This document shows, piece by piece, positions 12 through 34,222 of a stretch of 34,222 nt of DNA (its first letter is position 1; the number at the start of each line of letters is the position of its first letter). The stretch covers positions 1-34,222 of the forward strand of contig JAPLKI010000023.1 of assembly GCA_026388155.1 (NCBI GenBank). Direction: 5' to 3'. This DNA is from Elusimicrobiota bacterium (GTDB taxonomy: Bacteria; Elusimicrobiota; Elusimicrobia; Elusimicrobiales; UBA9959). The notes below the pieces were generated by a model. That model saw only the letters and a list, made by a program, of their open reading frames with translations, was not told the origin of the DNA and did not search any database. The position numbers and the translations under genes are program-made.

Positions 12-202
12 TTGGAGGGGGTGACGGCGGGTTTGCCCGCTGCGCCCCAGTAGCGGAGAGGAGGCTCCACCCCTCAATACGGGGTGGAGGGGGACCACGG
101 GAGGCCGTCTGATGGCCATAGGCCCTGATACGGCACCTGCGTAGGCATTGGGTCCCCCACGGGTCTGGGGCGAAGGGCAATCCGCCGGCAGGACCCCCGA
201 AC
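12..202. repeat. Dispersed structured element, copy 1 (tRNA-end-like terminus)
   Basis: Non-coding element bounded by TTGGAGGGGGTGAC on the left and GGCAGGACCCCCGAAC on the right. The same pair of end sequences, slightly varied, bounds the elements at 17542-17771 and 28261-28403. Inside is a perfect 9-bp hairpin (CTCCACCCC 65-73 with GGGGTGGAG 81-89, 7-nt loop) and a second short hairpin (GCGGG/CCCGC near 26-40). Positions 103-125 match 19769-19791 in inverted orientation at 22 of 23 bases. No convincing reading frame crosses it. Read on the minus strand, the left end is GTCACCCCCTCCA, resembling a tRNA acceptor 3' strand plus CCA. Function unknown; it could be a structured RNA or a mobile-element remnant. 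Confidence 0.5.
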
Positions 203-7504: not shown

Positions 7505-7622
7505 TGAGCCAAAAGTCCGCCTATTTCATGACAAAAGGCCCAGTCCGGCACTAGGTAAATAATAACCCTTTGCGCGCGCTCTCGCGCCGGCGCCCCGCTC
7601 TTTGTTAATATATACAGCGGTG

Positions 7623-7678
7623 GTAACAAGTTGCCAGTGACCAGTAACCGGTTACCGGTAACCGAATACCGGATACCG
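7623..7678. repeat. Heptanucleotide array (8 units) upstream of ettA
   Basis: Eight consecutive 7-bp units follow the pattern G/A-N-N-R/A-C-C-R, for example GTAACCG, GTTACCG, GTAACCG, AATACCG, GATACCG. Part of it is a perfect 16-bp palindrome (CGGTTACCGGTAACCG), so the array can fold into a hairpin. It ends 19 bp before the ettA start codon. Other degenerate heptamer arrays occur at 28474, 32154, 32223, 32612 and 32741. Confidence 0.75.
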
Positions 7679-9416: not shown

Positions 9417-9458
9417 AAAAATTAAGGCTCAAGGTTTAAACCTTGAGCCTTAATTTTT
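9417..9458. terminator. Perfect 42-bp palindrome, bidirectional terminator
   Basis: Two 21-bp arms (9417-9437 and 9438-9458) are exact reverse complements with no spacer. The GC core AGGCTCAAGG is flanked by A runs on one side and T runs on the other, so either transcript ends in a hairpin plus U-tract. It sits between convergent ettA (+) and the M20 peptidase (-), 34 and 12 bp from their stop codons. Confidence 0.9.
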
Positions 9459-10765: not shown

Positions 10766-10846
10766 TCCGCCGGCAGGACCCCCGAACTTGCAGCCACGAC
10801 ACATATACGTTCCACCGCTTGTTGTACTAACGATTTAAACTCCTGG
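10766..10846. repeat. 81-bp dispersed repeat, copy B
   Basis: Direct copy of 181-261 with 6 mismatches. The left end begins TCCGCCGGCAGG exactly as in copy A, but the 170 bp that precede copy A are absent here, so this is either a truncated element or an independent mobile segment. It lies in the divergent spacer between the peptidase (start 10708, -) and the PLD-like gene (+). Confidence 0.85.
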
Positions 10847-18853: not shown

Positions 18854-19144
18854 AATGTTTTTACCCTCCCCCTTTAGTGTTTCCGCTGCCATGTTTATAG
18901 GATAGCAGGTTTGAGAGATTTTGCCGACGGCCCTAAGCCTTGTAATCCGTTGTTTTAAGGCCCAGGGAAAAATGGGCCAAAAGGGCACCGCTTTTTTGCC
19001 GCCGGTGAAGCGAAAAAAGCGCGCTAGATATGTGCAATGGCGTACAATAGCGGGTGTTTGCAACATCAGGCGTTAAAAGAAAAATCAGCCTGACATAGCC
19101 GGAATGATTTGATATATTGATATCAGGGGTATAGCTACTTAATT

Positions 19145-19672
19145 ATGAGATACGTTTCCGCAGCTTGCTTTATCTGCCTGATCGCGCTTCTATCCTTAGC
19201 GTCAGGTGGAAATACTTACGCCGCGGACCAGGAAACGTTTGGGCGCTCTGCCGCATTGGGAGTAAATTATCCCGGCGGGAATTTAAAAATATTCCTTCCG
19301 GACAGTTTTGCGGCCGAGCTGAGAGGGCAATATGTGGATAAAATTCTGACCGGCGGCGCGCGGTTGTATTATTATCCTTCAGTTTTCGGTTTCAACAATG
19401 CGCGGCTGCGCCCTTTTCTTGGCGCAGAGGGCGATTACATATCGTTTAAAGGTCAATTAAGCAAAGGCAACGGCGCGGCATTCGGCGCAATAGCAGGGGT
19501 GGAGTGTTTTTTATCTAAGCGCATATCCGTTCAAACCGATGCCGGGCCGTTTTATATAGCGTTAAAAGACAACAAATCAGCCCTCAGGCAGAGCGGCCTG
19601 GAGTTTGTTTTAAATTTCGGCGTTAATTTCTATTTTAACCCGAATCCTGCAGTTCAACCCGGTTTCCATTGA
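19145..19672 (+). CDS. Outer-membrane beta-barrel protein (OmpW/opacity-like)
   Basis: 175 residues with signal peptide (FICLIALLSLASGGNTYA). Mature sequence alternates short amphipathic strands and turns (AALGVNYPGGNLKIFL, LTGGARLYYYPSVFG, PFLGAEGDYISFKG, GAIAGVECFL, LEFVLNFGVNFYF), the pattern of an eight-stranded barrel. The penultimate strand ends in aromatic residues, followed by a short tail. No catalytic motif, so structural or porin-like role. No strong Shine-Dalgarno precedes the ATG. An AGCCTGACA motif lies about 50 bp upstream. Confidence 0.7.
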   Translation: MRYVSAACFICLIALLSLASGGNTYAADQETFGRSAALGVNYPGGNLKIFLPDSFAAELRGQYVDKILTGGARLYYYPSVFGFNNARLRPFLGAEGDYISFKGQLSKGNGAAFGAIAGVECFLSKRISVQTDAGPFYIALKDNKSALRQSGLEFVLNFGVNFYFNPNPAVQPGFH

Positions 19673-19689
19673 GAAATCAGGTGAACAGA

Positions 19690-19955
19690 ATTATTGCAAT
19701 ACCTGTGTAGGAGGGGAAACCGCCATGCGGTGTCCCTTAAGGTGTTGGGAAAGGGTCGTCTACTATAGGGGCCTATGGCTATCAGACGGCCGGGATTCCC
19801 CGCAGCAGCGGGTTGCGGATCCAGTGCACTGCGCGCCAGATCCGCAAGGGTGTATACCGCGCGAAGCGCACCTGAGCTCAGTCGCTGACAGCGCCATAGG
19901 CCAGCGACAGGCCAGAGTCACTGCGAAGGGAAAAATGCAACTGCATTTTTCAAGC
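19690..19955 (+). ncRNA. Candidate structured RNA upstream of the FN3/SBBP gene
   Basis: 266 nt without credible coding but dense in exact pairings. GGCCTATGGC (19770-19779) pairs with GCCATAGGCC (19893-19902), 10 bp. TTGCGGATC (19813-19821) pairs with GATCCGCAA (19839-19847), 9 bp. CCCGC/GCGGG lies near 19798-19812, GCGC-GAA-GCGC near 19860-19869, and CCGC-CAT-GCGG near 19721-19731. GTCGCTG (19881-19887) pairs with CAGCGAC (19902-19908), competing with or knotting the first helix. The region ends in an A-rich/T-rich hairpin AAAAATGC/GCATTTTT (19931-19950) like a terminator. A 23-bp core (19769-19791) recurs inverted at 103-125. It could be a leader RNA for the gene at 19972, an independent small RNA or a repeat. 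Orientation is inferred from the terminal hairpin. Confidence 0.45.
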
Positions 19956-19971
19956 TAAATAAGGCAGAACA

Positions 19972-22665
19972 ATGAGAAAAACAGTTCTTTTCCTGCTGAT
20001 AACTTTTAATTTCTCATTCAGCTCCTATGCCGGTTTAAGCGCAGGTTTGCCTGGAGCGGTAAAAAAGCAAGTGGCCAAGCTGGATGAAAAAGTGCTGTCC
20101 GCCGCAAAAACAAAAAACACCCCCGCGTCATTTTCCGGCCAGGCCGGCAATGGCGCGGCTGAAATAACCTGGGCTTCCGTGCCCGGGGCTTCCTCCTACA
20201 ACTTGTACTGGGGCGACACGCCGCAGTTACAGGCTATAAGGCCGCTGAACAAAACGACCCGGGTAACCAGCCCGTATATCCTTACGGGACTGGCTAACGG
20301 CGCAATTTACTATTACTCAATTTCATCCGTATCGGACGGCATAGAGTCCAACCTTACGCCTGTAGCCCAGATAACACCTTCAGCTTTACTGCCATTGCGT
20401 CCCGAAGGTGTTTCCGGAGTCAACGGCACGGGACAAATAACCTTAAACTGGGATTCGGTCTCGGGAGCTTCCTCTTACAATATTTACTGGGGTTCCGCGG
20501 CGGGAGTAACCAAAGTGTCAACCAAAATCAGCGGCGCAACCATGCCCTACGCGCATACCGCGTTGACATACGGGCAGATATACTATTACCGCGTGTCCGC
20601 GCAGAACGCGGCGGGGGAGTCAATACTGAGTACGGAAGCGGCCGGCACGCCTTTGCTGGCCTTGCCGCAGAATGTGGCTGTTTCCACGGGCAACGCGCAA
20701 AACACGGTTTCATGGAACGCGGTAAGCGGGGCGACAGCGTACAACATCTATTGGGGCGCTTCAGCGGGCATAACTAAAGCCTCAACCAGGATCAGCGGCG
20801 TGGCAAGCCCTTATGCGCATACCGGGTTGACGAACGGGCAGACATATTATTACCGCGTAACAGCTATGACTTCGAAGGAGGAATCCGGTTTGAGCGCGGA
20901 AGTATCCGCGATAACGGTACCGGACGCGCCGCGCAATGCCGTTGTTACGGCAAGCGACGGGCAAAACACAGTTTCATGGGATGCCGTAACAGGCGCTGTG
21001 TCTTATAATATTTATTGGGGCGTCGCAGCGGGCATAACTAAGGCCTCAGCCAAGTTCAGCGGCGCGGTCAGCCCTTGTGAGCATACCGGGTTGACGAACG
21101 GGCAGGCGTATTACTACCGCATAACGGCGGTGAACGCGGCGGGTGAGTCAGCTCTGAGCGCGGAAGTGTCGGGCACGCCCATAATAATAACCATACCGGA
21201 TGCTCCGCAGAATGCGGCTGTTGCGTCAAGTAACGTGCAAAACACAGTTTCATGGGATGCCGTTGCCGAAGCTGTGTCTTATAATATTTATTGGGGCGTT
21301 TCAGCGGGCATAACTACAGCCTCAACCAGGATCAGCGGCGTTGCCAGCCCCTATGCGCATACCGGGTTGACGAACGGGCATGCGTATTACTACCGCGTGT
21401 CCGCGCAAAACGCTTCCGGTGAATCCGCGTTAAGCGAGGAAGTGACCGGCACGCCCGCAATTACCAGCGGCGACAAGTTGTGGGCCAGACAGTTCGGATC
21501 TGTTTCCACGGATGACGGCTACGGCGTAGCGACGGACTCTTCCAGTAATGTCTATGTTACCGGGCGCACCGCCGGCGGCCTTGACGGGAATACGAATGAG
21601 GGCGATTACGACATGTTCCTGGCCAAGTATGACGCTTCCGGAGCAAGGCTTTGGACCAAACAGCTTGGAACGTCTTCATATGATGAAGGCCGGGGTGTGG
21701 CGGCAGACTCTTCCGGCAATGTTTATGTTACCGGGCGCACTTATGGCGGCCTTGACGGGAATACGAATGAGGGCGATTACGACATGTTCCTTGTCCAGTA
21801 TAGCGCCTCAGGCATCAAGCAATGGACCAGGCAGCTTGGAACGTCTTCATACGATGAAGGCCGGGGTGTGGCGACGGACTCTTCCGGCAATGTTTATGTC
21901 GCCGGAGACACTAACGGCGGCCTTGACGGGAATACGAATGCAGGCGGCGGCGACATGTTCCTGGTCAAGTATGATTCTTCCGGCAATAAGAAATGGACCA
22001 AAGAGCTTGGAACGCCTTCAAGCGATTTTGGCTCCGGCGTAACGACGGATTTTTCCGGCAATATTTATGTTACCGGCTATACGGACGGCGTGCTTGGCGG
22101 GGCTGCGAACGCGGGCGGGTACGACATATTCGTGGTCAAGTACAGCACCTCCGGCGCAAAGCTCTGGACCAGACAGCTTGGGACGAACGGGTCGGATTTC
22201 GGCTCCGGCGTGGCGACGGACTCTTCCGGTAATGTTTATGTTACCGGGCGCACTAACGGCGGCCTTGACGGGAATACGAATGAGGGCGATTACGATATGT
22301 TCCTGGTCAAATACAGCACCGCCGGTGTCAAGCGATGGACCAGACAGCTTGGAACGTCTTTATACGATGAAGGCCGGGGCGTAGCGATAGACTCTTCCGA
22401 CAATGTTTATGTTTCCGGGTACACGGCCGGCGGGCTTGACGGGAATACGAACGCGGGCGGGTACGACATGTTTCTGGTTAAGTATGACTCTTCCGGCGCA
22501 AAGCTTTGGACCAAACAGTTTGGAACAGCTTCATCCGATTTAAACTCCGGCGTAGCGGCAGACTCTTCCGGCAATGTTTATGTTACCGGGTCAACCGAAG
22601 GCGGACTTGACGGGAATACGAATCAGGGAGGTTCCGACATGTTCCTGGTAAAGTACGCGCAGTAA
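19972..22665 (+). CDS. Secreted protein with five FN3 domains and a seven-repeat SBBP beta-propeller
   Basis: 897 residues. Signal peptide (KTVLFLLITFNFSFSSYA). Five fibronectin type III domains of ~88 residues (about 50-490), each with ITW/VSW, SSYNIYWG, TGLTNGQ.YYY and AxGES signatures. From about residue 498 seven 57-residue SBBP-type repeats follow, each with W(T/A)(K/R)Q(L/F)GT, GVA.DSSGNVYVTG, GGLDGNTN and DMFLVKY. Seven is the usual count for a closed propeller. The final repeat stops at KYAQ right at the C-terminus. Likely surface-exposed adhesion or binding protein. Repeats are nearly identical at DNA level (171-bp period), implying recent amplification. Confidence 0.93.
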   Translation: MRKTVLFLLITFNFSFSSYAGLSAGLPGAVKKQVAKLDEKVLSAAKTKNTPASFSGQAGNGAAEITWASVPGASSYNLYWGDTPQLQAIRPLNKTTRVTSPYILTGLANGAIYYYSISSVSDGIESNLTPVAQITPSALLPLRPEGVSGVNGTGQITLNWDSVSGASSYNIYWGSAAGVTKVSTKISGATMPYAHTALTYGQIYYYRVSAQNAAGESILSTEAAGTPLLALPQNVAVSTGNAQNTVSWNAVSGATAYNIYWGASAGITKASTRISGVASPYAHTGLTNGQTYYYRVTAMTSKEESGLSAEVSAITVPDAPRNAVVTASDGQNTVSWDAVTGAVSYNIYWGVAAGITKASAKFSGAVSPCEHTGLTNGQAYYYRITAVNAAGESALSAEVSGTPIIITIPDAPQNAAVASSNVQNTVSWDAVAEAVSYNIYWGVSAGITTASTRISGVASPYAHTGLTNGHAYYYRVSAQNASGESALSEEVTGTPAITSGDKLWARQFGSVSTDDGYGVATDSSSNVYVTGRTAGGLDGNTNEGDYDMFLAKYDASGARLWTKQLGTSSYDEGRGVAADSSGNVYVTGRTYGGLDGNTNEGDYDMFLVQYSASGIKQWTRQLGTSSYDEGRGVATDSSGNVYVAGDTNGGLDGNTNAGGGDMFLVKYDSSGNKKWTKELGTPSSDFGSGVTTDFSGNIYVTGYTDGVLGGAANAGGYDIFVVKYSTSGAKLWTRQLGTNGSDFGSGVATDSSGNVYVTGRTNGGLDGNTNEGDYDMFLVKYSTAGVKRWTRQLGTSLYDEGRGVAIDSSDNVYVSGYTAGGLDGNTNAGGYDMFLVKYDSSGAKLWTKQFGTASSDLNSGVAADSSGNVYVTGSTEGGLDGNTNQGGSDMFLVKYAQ

Positions 22666-32787: not shown

Positions 32788-34222
<1,435 letters not shown>

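Follow-up and report, generated by a model that had tools for sequence, protein, structure and literature searches.

The structured region around positions 19690–19955 of the window (the whole stretch of 34,222 nucleotides analyzed here, from an Elusimicrobiota bacterium) is a mosaic of dispersed repeats, namely one copy of a mobile element, here called E, and not a unique non-coding RNA gene. With high confidence, E can be classed as a MITE, and the sequence of its ends would make it, with good confidence, one of IS1380 type. Taken as a whole, we consider it very probable that the window holds a composite miniature-transposon copy, mobilized by an IS1380 transposase, with a conserved multi-helix fold. 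The first-pass annotation had placed a structured region at 19690–19955, and such a region does lie there, but the element begins at 19639 and these coordinates were a little short. The element, its parts and its two neighboring genes are as follows.

19145–19672, plus strand: upstream ORF, outer-membrane-like, with its last codons (NPNPAVQPGFH-stop) read from E
19635–19638, plus strand: left target-site duplication TTAA, supported by the empty site in the relative G001, the YTAR consensus and left/right agreement in 129 copies
19639–19954, plus strand: element E, an IS1380-type MITE by its ends, present as a composite copy of 316 nt (usual length ~180) that holds two nested repeats
19639–19654, plus strand: left terminal inverted repeat CCCGAATCCTGCAGTT (CCYRAA-N5-CARTT)
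19642–19651, plus strand: 5' arm of helix P2, GAATCCTGCA, with the 3' arm made up of TGCA (19695–19698) and GGATTC (19793–19798), supported by covariation
19699–19791, plus strand: unit U, REP-like and present here as the long U/V form, which follows CA in E as an insert and is dispersed elsewhere
19799–19812, plus strand: helix P3, CCCGC/GCGGG, 98.6–99% of cells paired in the alignments
19813–19847, plus strand: helix P4, TTGCGGATC/GATCCGCAA, with an inner hairpin GTGC/GCGC (19824–19834) and covariation among the heaviest
19859–19869, plus strand: helix P5, GCGC-GAA-GCGC, from aligned copies
19871–19929, plus strand: helix P6, CCTGAGC/GCGAAGG, with possible tandem G-A pairs and a loop that carries unit C
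19879–19921, plus strand: palindromic repeat unit C of 43–44 nt, dispersed and tandem elsewhere
19930–19951, plus strand: helix P7, the terminal hairpin GAAAAATGC-AACT-GCATTTTTC, from the sequence and aligned copies
19939–19954, minus strand: right terminal inverted repeat, which reads CTTGAAAAATGCAGTT as its reverse complement and differs by one change from CCTGAA...
19955–19958, plus strand: right copy of the target-site duplication, CTAA, which differs from TTAA at one position, supported by the empty site and the YTAR consensus over copies
19972–22665, plus strand: large surface-protein gene with SBBP and fn3 repeats, which immediately follows the upstream gene in the empty site

When the own genome was searched with the DNA of this region, 68 matches were returned, which sort into separate modules, and the host element of ~180 nt was resolved by aligning clean copies from other loci. 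Clean copies measure ~137–187 nt and contain no transposase gene; the window copy corresponds to a covariance-model match of 134.7 bits (L116:1350-1672), and its extent follows also from the alignment of copies. E thus shows what characterizes a MITE: it is short, lacks a transposase gene, carries terminal inverted repeats at both ends, is flanked by a target duplication, with one empty site at hand, and occurs in many dispersed copies. At a threshold of E<1e-5, the covariance model finds 34 copies in the own genome, and copies are present in 40/59 genomes of the family, with 44 in one of them (G025). Beyond this family, five genomes carry E, and they belong to four other families of the same class; the majority of the 295 phylum genomes lack it. 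Among the matches listed in a core-pattern search of GTDB species genomes, all belong to Elusimicrobiota or to unnamed MAGs, and the core pattern had no match in viral contigs. The relatives with E are Elusimicrobia MAGs, in keeping with the assignment of the window to an Elusimicrobiota genome. Copies also occur clustered or in tandem, for example four within 2.4 kb in G034 (L227, G034:C141:10300-12700), or two within 0.5 kb on G002:C17 (L210), where a shorter piece lies upstream, seen in the overlapping locus L061. In G021 and WOVA01, E stands at many contig ends, which suggests near-identical, recently spread copies.

The ends of the element are sharply defined. Over 188 distinct copies, conservation begins at TTA-CC and ends at GG-TAA, and the flanks beyond are random. 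Left and right sides agree in the base after TA (p=1e-15) and in the base before TA (p=1e-6), which gives a 4-bp target duplication YTAR (129 copies), usually TTAA or TTAG and mostly TTAA. The ends themselves comprise 16 bp of the form CCYRAA-N5-CARTT, whose 11 fixed positions are matched perfectly in 115/193 left and 105/193 right ends, compared with 32/20,000 random positions. When the coding frame of an upstream gene continues into E, the TA is in codon frame 0 in 26/40 cases (p=6e-5), so that the TAA or TAG of the left duplication serves as the stop codon. This bias may reflect targeting of stop codons or survival after insertion.

Among relatives in which the locus can be matched, the closest is G001, of the same genus. 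It has an empty site at which both window flanks abut (G001:C38), matching window positions 19138–19638 (81%) and 19957–20094 (86%). Its junction reads TTTCTATT-TCAA-ATAAGGC, compared with TTTCTATT-TTAA-[E]-CTAA-ATAAGGC in the window, and E therefore reached this locus by insertion. At a further locus (L118) the relatives yielded the downstream flank only, leaving one empty site in all. The left end of E falls inside the upstream ORF; in G001 the upstream gene ends in ...FYFK-stop, a short distance ahead of the surface-protein gene start. The insertion removed this native stop codon and lengthened the protein by about 11 residues. Since both genes are present in G001 with no E between them, the downstream gene is independent of the element in this relative, and the earlier proposal of a ~260-nt non-coding RNA gene tied to the surface-protein gene does not hold. 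A conserved gene pair around E was likewise rejected as a general arrangement, because other copies have unrelated flanking genes. Copies are oriented in the sense of both neighbors somewhat more often than not (53 vs 28, p=0.007). The surface-protein gene itself matches fn3 and the SBBP beta-propeller and contains two sets of tandem internal repeats between 20383 and 22663 (264–276 nt, four times; 171 nt, six times).

Two smaller repeats are nested in the window copy. The U/V insert splits the 3' arm of P2, which E copies without the insert keep unbroken as TGCAGGATT. Unit U contains 23 bp in common with window positions 103–125, so the first-pass observation that the segment 19769–19791 recurs there inverted, and ties the region to dispersed elements, was correct, as was that of a core shared with the element at the left edge of the window; this core is unit U, present as a separate insert at both places. 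The left-edge element (1–370) is a longer repeat with its own U insert, which gave 44 matches as a DNA query against the own genome and has several near-identical copies, many at contig ends; it also has an 81-nt piece in common with 10766–10846 (93% identity). Unit C forms a hairpin with the exactly complementary arms GTCGCTG (19881–19887) and CAGCGAC (19902–19908). A pseudoknot had been suggested between these segments; their complementarity stands, but they form the simple hairpin of an inserted unit. The arms change together between copies (GTCGCGG/CCGCGAC in 21, GTCGCTG/CAGCGAC in 6 and GCCGCGG/CCGCGGC in 1, counts in which overlapping loci may enter a copy twice). REP sequences are mobilized by Y1 transposases (RAYT). 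Unit U resembles them in its GTAG foot followed by an imperfect palindrome, with GTAGG-TGCCGT...ACGGCC or a close variant in most copies, and in the presence of Y1 transposases in the genome. It differs from them in that, among the four Y1 transposase genes of the own genome (L088–L091), none is flanked by U as a RAYT gene would be, nor adjoined by V, C or E (0/4).

Other features were observed elsewhere in the window. Between convergent ORFs, 9417–9458 is a perfect 21-bp inverted repeat without a loop (AAAAATTAAGGCTCAAGGTTT and its complement), which looks like a bidirectional terminator, and 7622–7677 consists of overlapping palindromes based on GGTTACCGGTAACC. On the minus strand, 492–1694 encodes a 400-aa ORF with a weak match to a retroviral-type aspartyl protease (PF00077, E 5e-5), and at 32788–34222 lies a 16S rRNA gene that is truncated where the contig ends.

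With regard to the mobilizing enzyme, the TTAA-like target suggested the IS1380 family. DDE_Tnp_1_4 (PF13701) transposases occur in 11/59 genomes of the family. For example, L440 (G081) is a 1541-bp IS1380 element with a 456-aa DDE_Tnp_1_4 ORF between the ends CCTGAATTCCCCAGTT and AACTGCGCTTTTCAGG. This element and L435 (G010) carry the end motif of E at both ends with 11/11 positions, and L432 (G023) carries it at the left end, so that E has its ends in common with autonomous IS1380 elements. The flanking duplications of the two copies with both ends are imperfect (TTAG/CTAA and TTAA/CCCC). The own genome (G000, 96.9% complete) has no PF13701 match, a lack that is not strictly defining as copies can outlive their transposase, and no IS1380, IS630 (DDE_3) or DDE_Tnp_1 transposase was found in it. 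Current mobility of E in this genome is therefore doubtful, and the mobilizing enzyme would reside in relatives only or within the missing ~3%. Two other candidates were rejected. An IS630/Tc1-type MITE, which has a 2-bp TA duplication, does not fit, because that of E is 4 bp and the own genome has no DDE_3. As for DDE_Tnp_1, most matches in relatives are without E ends, and those with a clear left E end, L405 and L417, are the same loci as the IS1380 elements L432 and L435.

The description of the window region as hairpin-dense was borne out, as it folds better than 200/200 dinucleotide shuffles on either strand (z of -3.0 on the plus and -3.3 on the minus strand). An Rfam search gave nothing at gathering level and, up to E=10, one meaningless 15-bit match, in agreement with the first-pass annotation, which recognized no RNase P, tmRNA, 6S, SRP or known riboswitch in the region. 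What had been described as a terminator-like hairpin is a real helix (19930–19951), but it is the terminal hairpin of E, which in many copies reads GAAAGTTTCAACTGAAACTTTC, without a U tract. In alignments of 99 and 94 copies, which were fitted to the covariance model and lean towards its structure, 94% of cells are paired and double changes occur at 54 and 51 of 55 pairs; the helices are thus kept in relatives with compensating changes. The covariation score is 0.355 and 0.396, respectively, compared with 0.14 for shuffled alignments and at most 0.10 for slid partners. Altogether, compensatory covariation is very strong over about nine helices and about 190 aligned copies, and P6, for example, is fully paired in some relatives (CGCCCGC/GCGGGCG). 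In the internal helices P3 to P6, deduplicated and read on the plus strand, G-U pairs outnumber A-C mismatches by 85 to 17 (p=5e-12), a ratio to which mutation bias on the transcribed strand could add and which comes from copies that are partly dependent on one another. For P7, the terminal helix, the numbers are nearer even (25 to 15). Such an excess in the internal helices indicates selection on one strand, most simply as RNA. The compensatory, strand-specific covariation expected of a functional structured RNA is thus present; the interior of E is very probably selected as a folded single strand, probably RNA, which suggests that E is also read as a structured RNA. More tentatively, E may carry structured RNA of a new class, with about nine helices and ~140–187 nt, which an IS1380-type transposon would have spread through Elusimicrobiota and which would have a selected role of its own, for example in stabilizing or processing host mRNA or in acting in trans to aid persistence of the element; we regard this as possible, though with less than even chances.

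The same fold could have arisen in other ways. It might serve transposition as a DNA cruciform or single-stranded structure, comparable to those of IS200/IS605 or of integron attC sites. In favor of this, the terminal helices P2 and P7 overlap the inverted repeats and P7 shows little strand bias. Yet the one-strand bias of the internal helices is strong, and both the 4-bp YTAR duplications and the IS1380-like ends speak for a DDE mechanism on double-stranded DNA, for which no folded strand is needed. We therefore regard a DNA structure as unlikely. It is more improbable still that the fold is a by-product of repeated palindrome insertion and duplication, with covariation inherited from a few diverged master copies in place of selection. 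Insertion of palindromes into E does occur, as units U and C show, and its copies fall into subfamilies, but double changes affect nearly all 55 pairs, many with three to four pair types and across five families, the slid controls collapse, and neutral divergence should have broken the helices of old copies, yet 94% of cells pair.

If the region were an independent non-coding RNA gene with a function of its own, or a regulatory RNA on the 5' side of the surface-protein gene, this would account for the covariation, the plus-strand bias, the position just upstream of the gene start and the mild excess in sense direction. The gene pair is intact without E in G001, though, other copies adjoin unrelated genes in every orientation, terminal repeats and target duplications mark a mobile element, and the window copy is interrupted by two inserts, so we give this explanation hardly any credence.

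For a mobile element with IS1380-type ends, the following course of events can be proposed. Most likely, an IS1380-family DDE transposase, acting in trans, recognizes the 16-bp ends and moves E, duplicating the 4-bp YTAR target. In the window, E inserted where the outer-membrane-like gene ends on its 3' side, added the ~11 residues to that protein, and placed ~320 nt of foldable RNA in the gap before the surface-protein gene; U/V and C are present within it as smaller inserted repeats. Transcription through from adjoining genes may then expose the interior fold to selection as plus-strand RNA.

Bacterial MITEs such as BOX and ERIC fold, and selection of such a fold as RNA is hard to show. Nearly 200 copies of E over several families combine covariation and a clear one-strand signature with a candidate for the autonomous partner and with insertions at stop codons, and consequently make the question whether MITEs carry functional RNA directly testable. 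In addition, E accounts for a large class of the intergenic repeats of this phylum, our knowledge of which comes mostly from metagenomes.

Our literature search found no paper on such repeats in Elusimicrobiota, nor on a TTAA target of IS1380. E resembles IS1380 insertion sequences in its 16-bp ends, the TTAA-like 4-bp duplication and the 11 defined end positions that match elements of relatives, but it lacks a transposase gene, and similarity of its body to these elements is not evident. The piggyBac transposons are TTAA-specific and distantly related to the IS1380 family. Such targets are characteristic of piggyBac, with IS1380 transposases as the outgroup (PMC10813416). In Paracoccus, the IS1380-family element IS1247 carries inverted repeats of 16/13 bp and generates a duplication of 5 bp (PMC3281130). 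The ERIC/RU repeats of enterobacteria are MITE-like folded intergenic repeats of 127–168 bp that can be read into adjoining ORFs (PMC2759123, PMC2229807). E is likewise a folded, MITE-like intergenic repeat that is read into a neighboring ORF, and by description it is set apart by host group, sizes, its 4-bp YTAR duplications and a transposase candidate. Similarly, BOX, RUP and SPRITE of Streptococcus pneumoniae are short, intergenic and mutually nested, with inserts that spare the overall fold; their terminal inverted repeats pair in the RNA form, with likely effects on co-transcribed genes, and BOX and RUP, like E, have terminal inverted repeats and target duplications (PMC3049150). E is not a member of the BOX or RUP families by its ends, target or host: it differs from the pneumococcal repeats in phylum, sequence, end motif and target, has no boxA-boxB-boxC modules, and is distinguished by a G-U bias on one strand and by conservation of its fold over several families.
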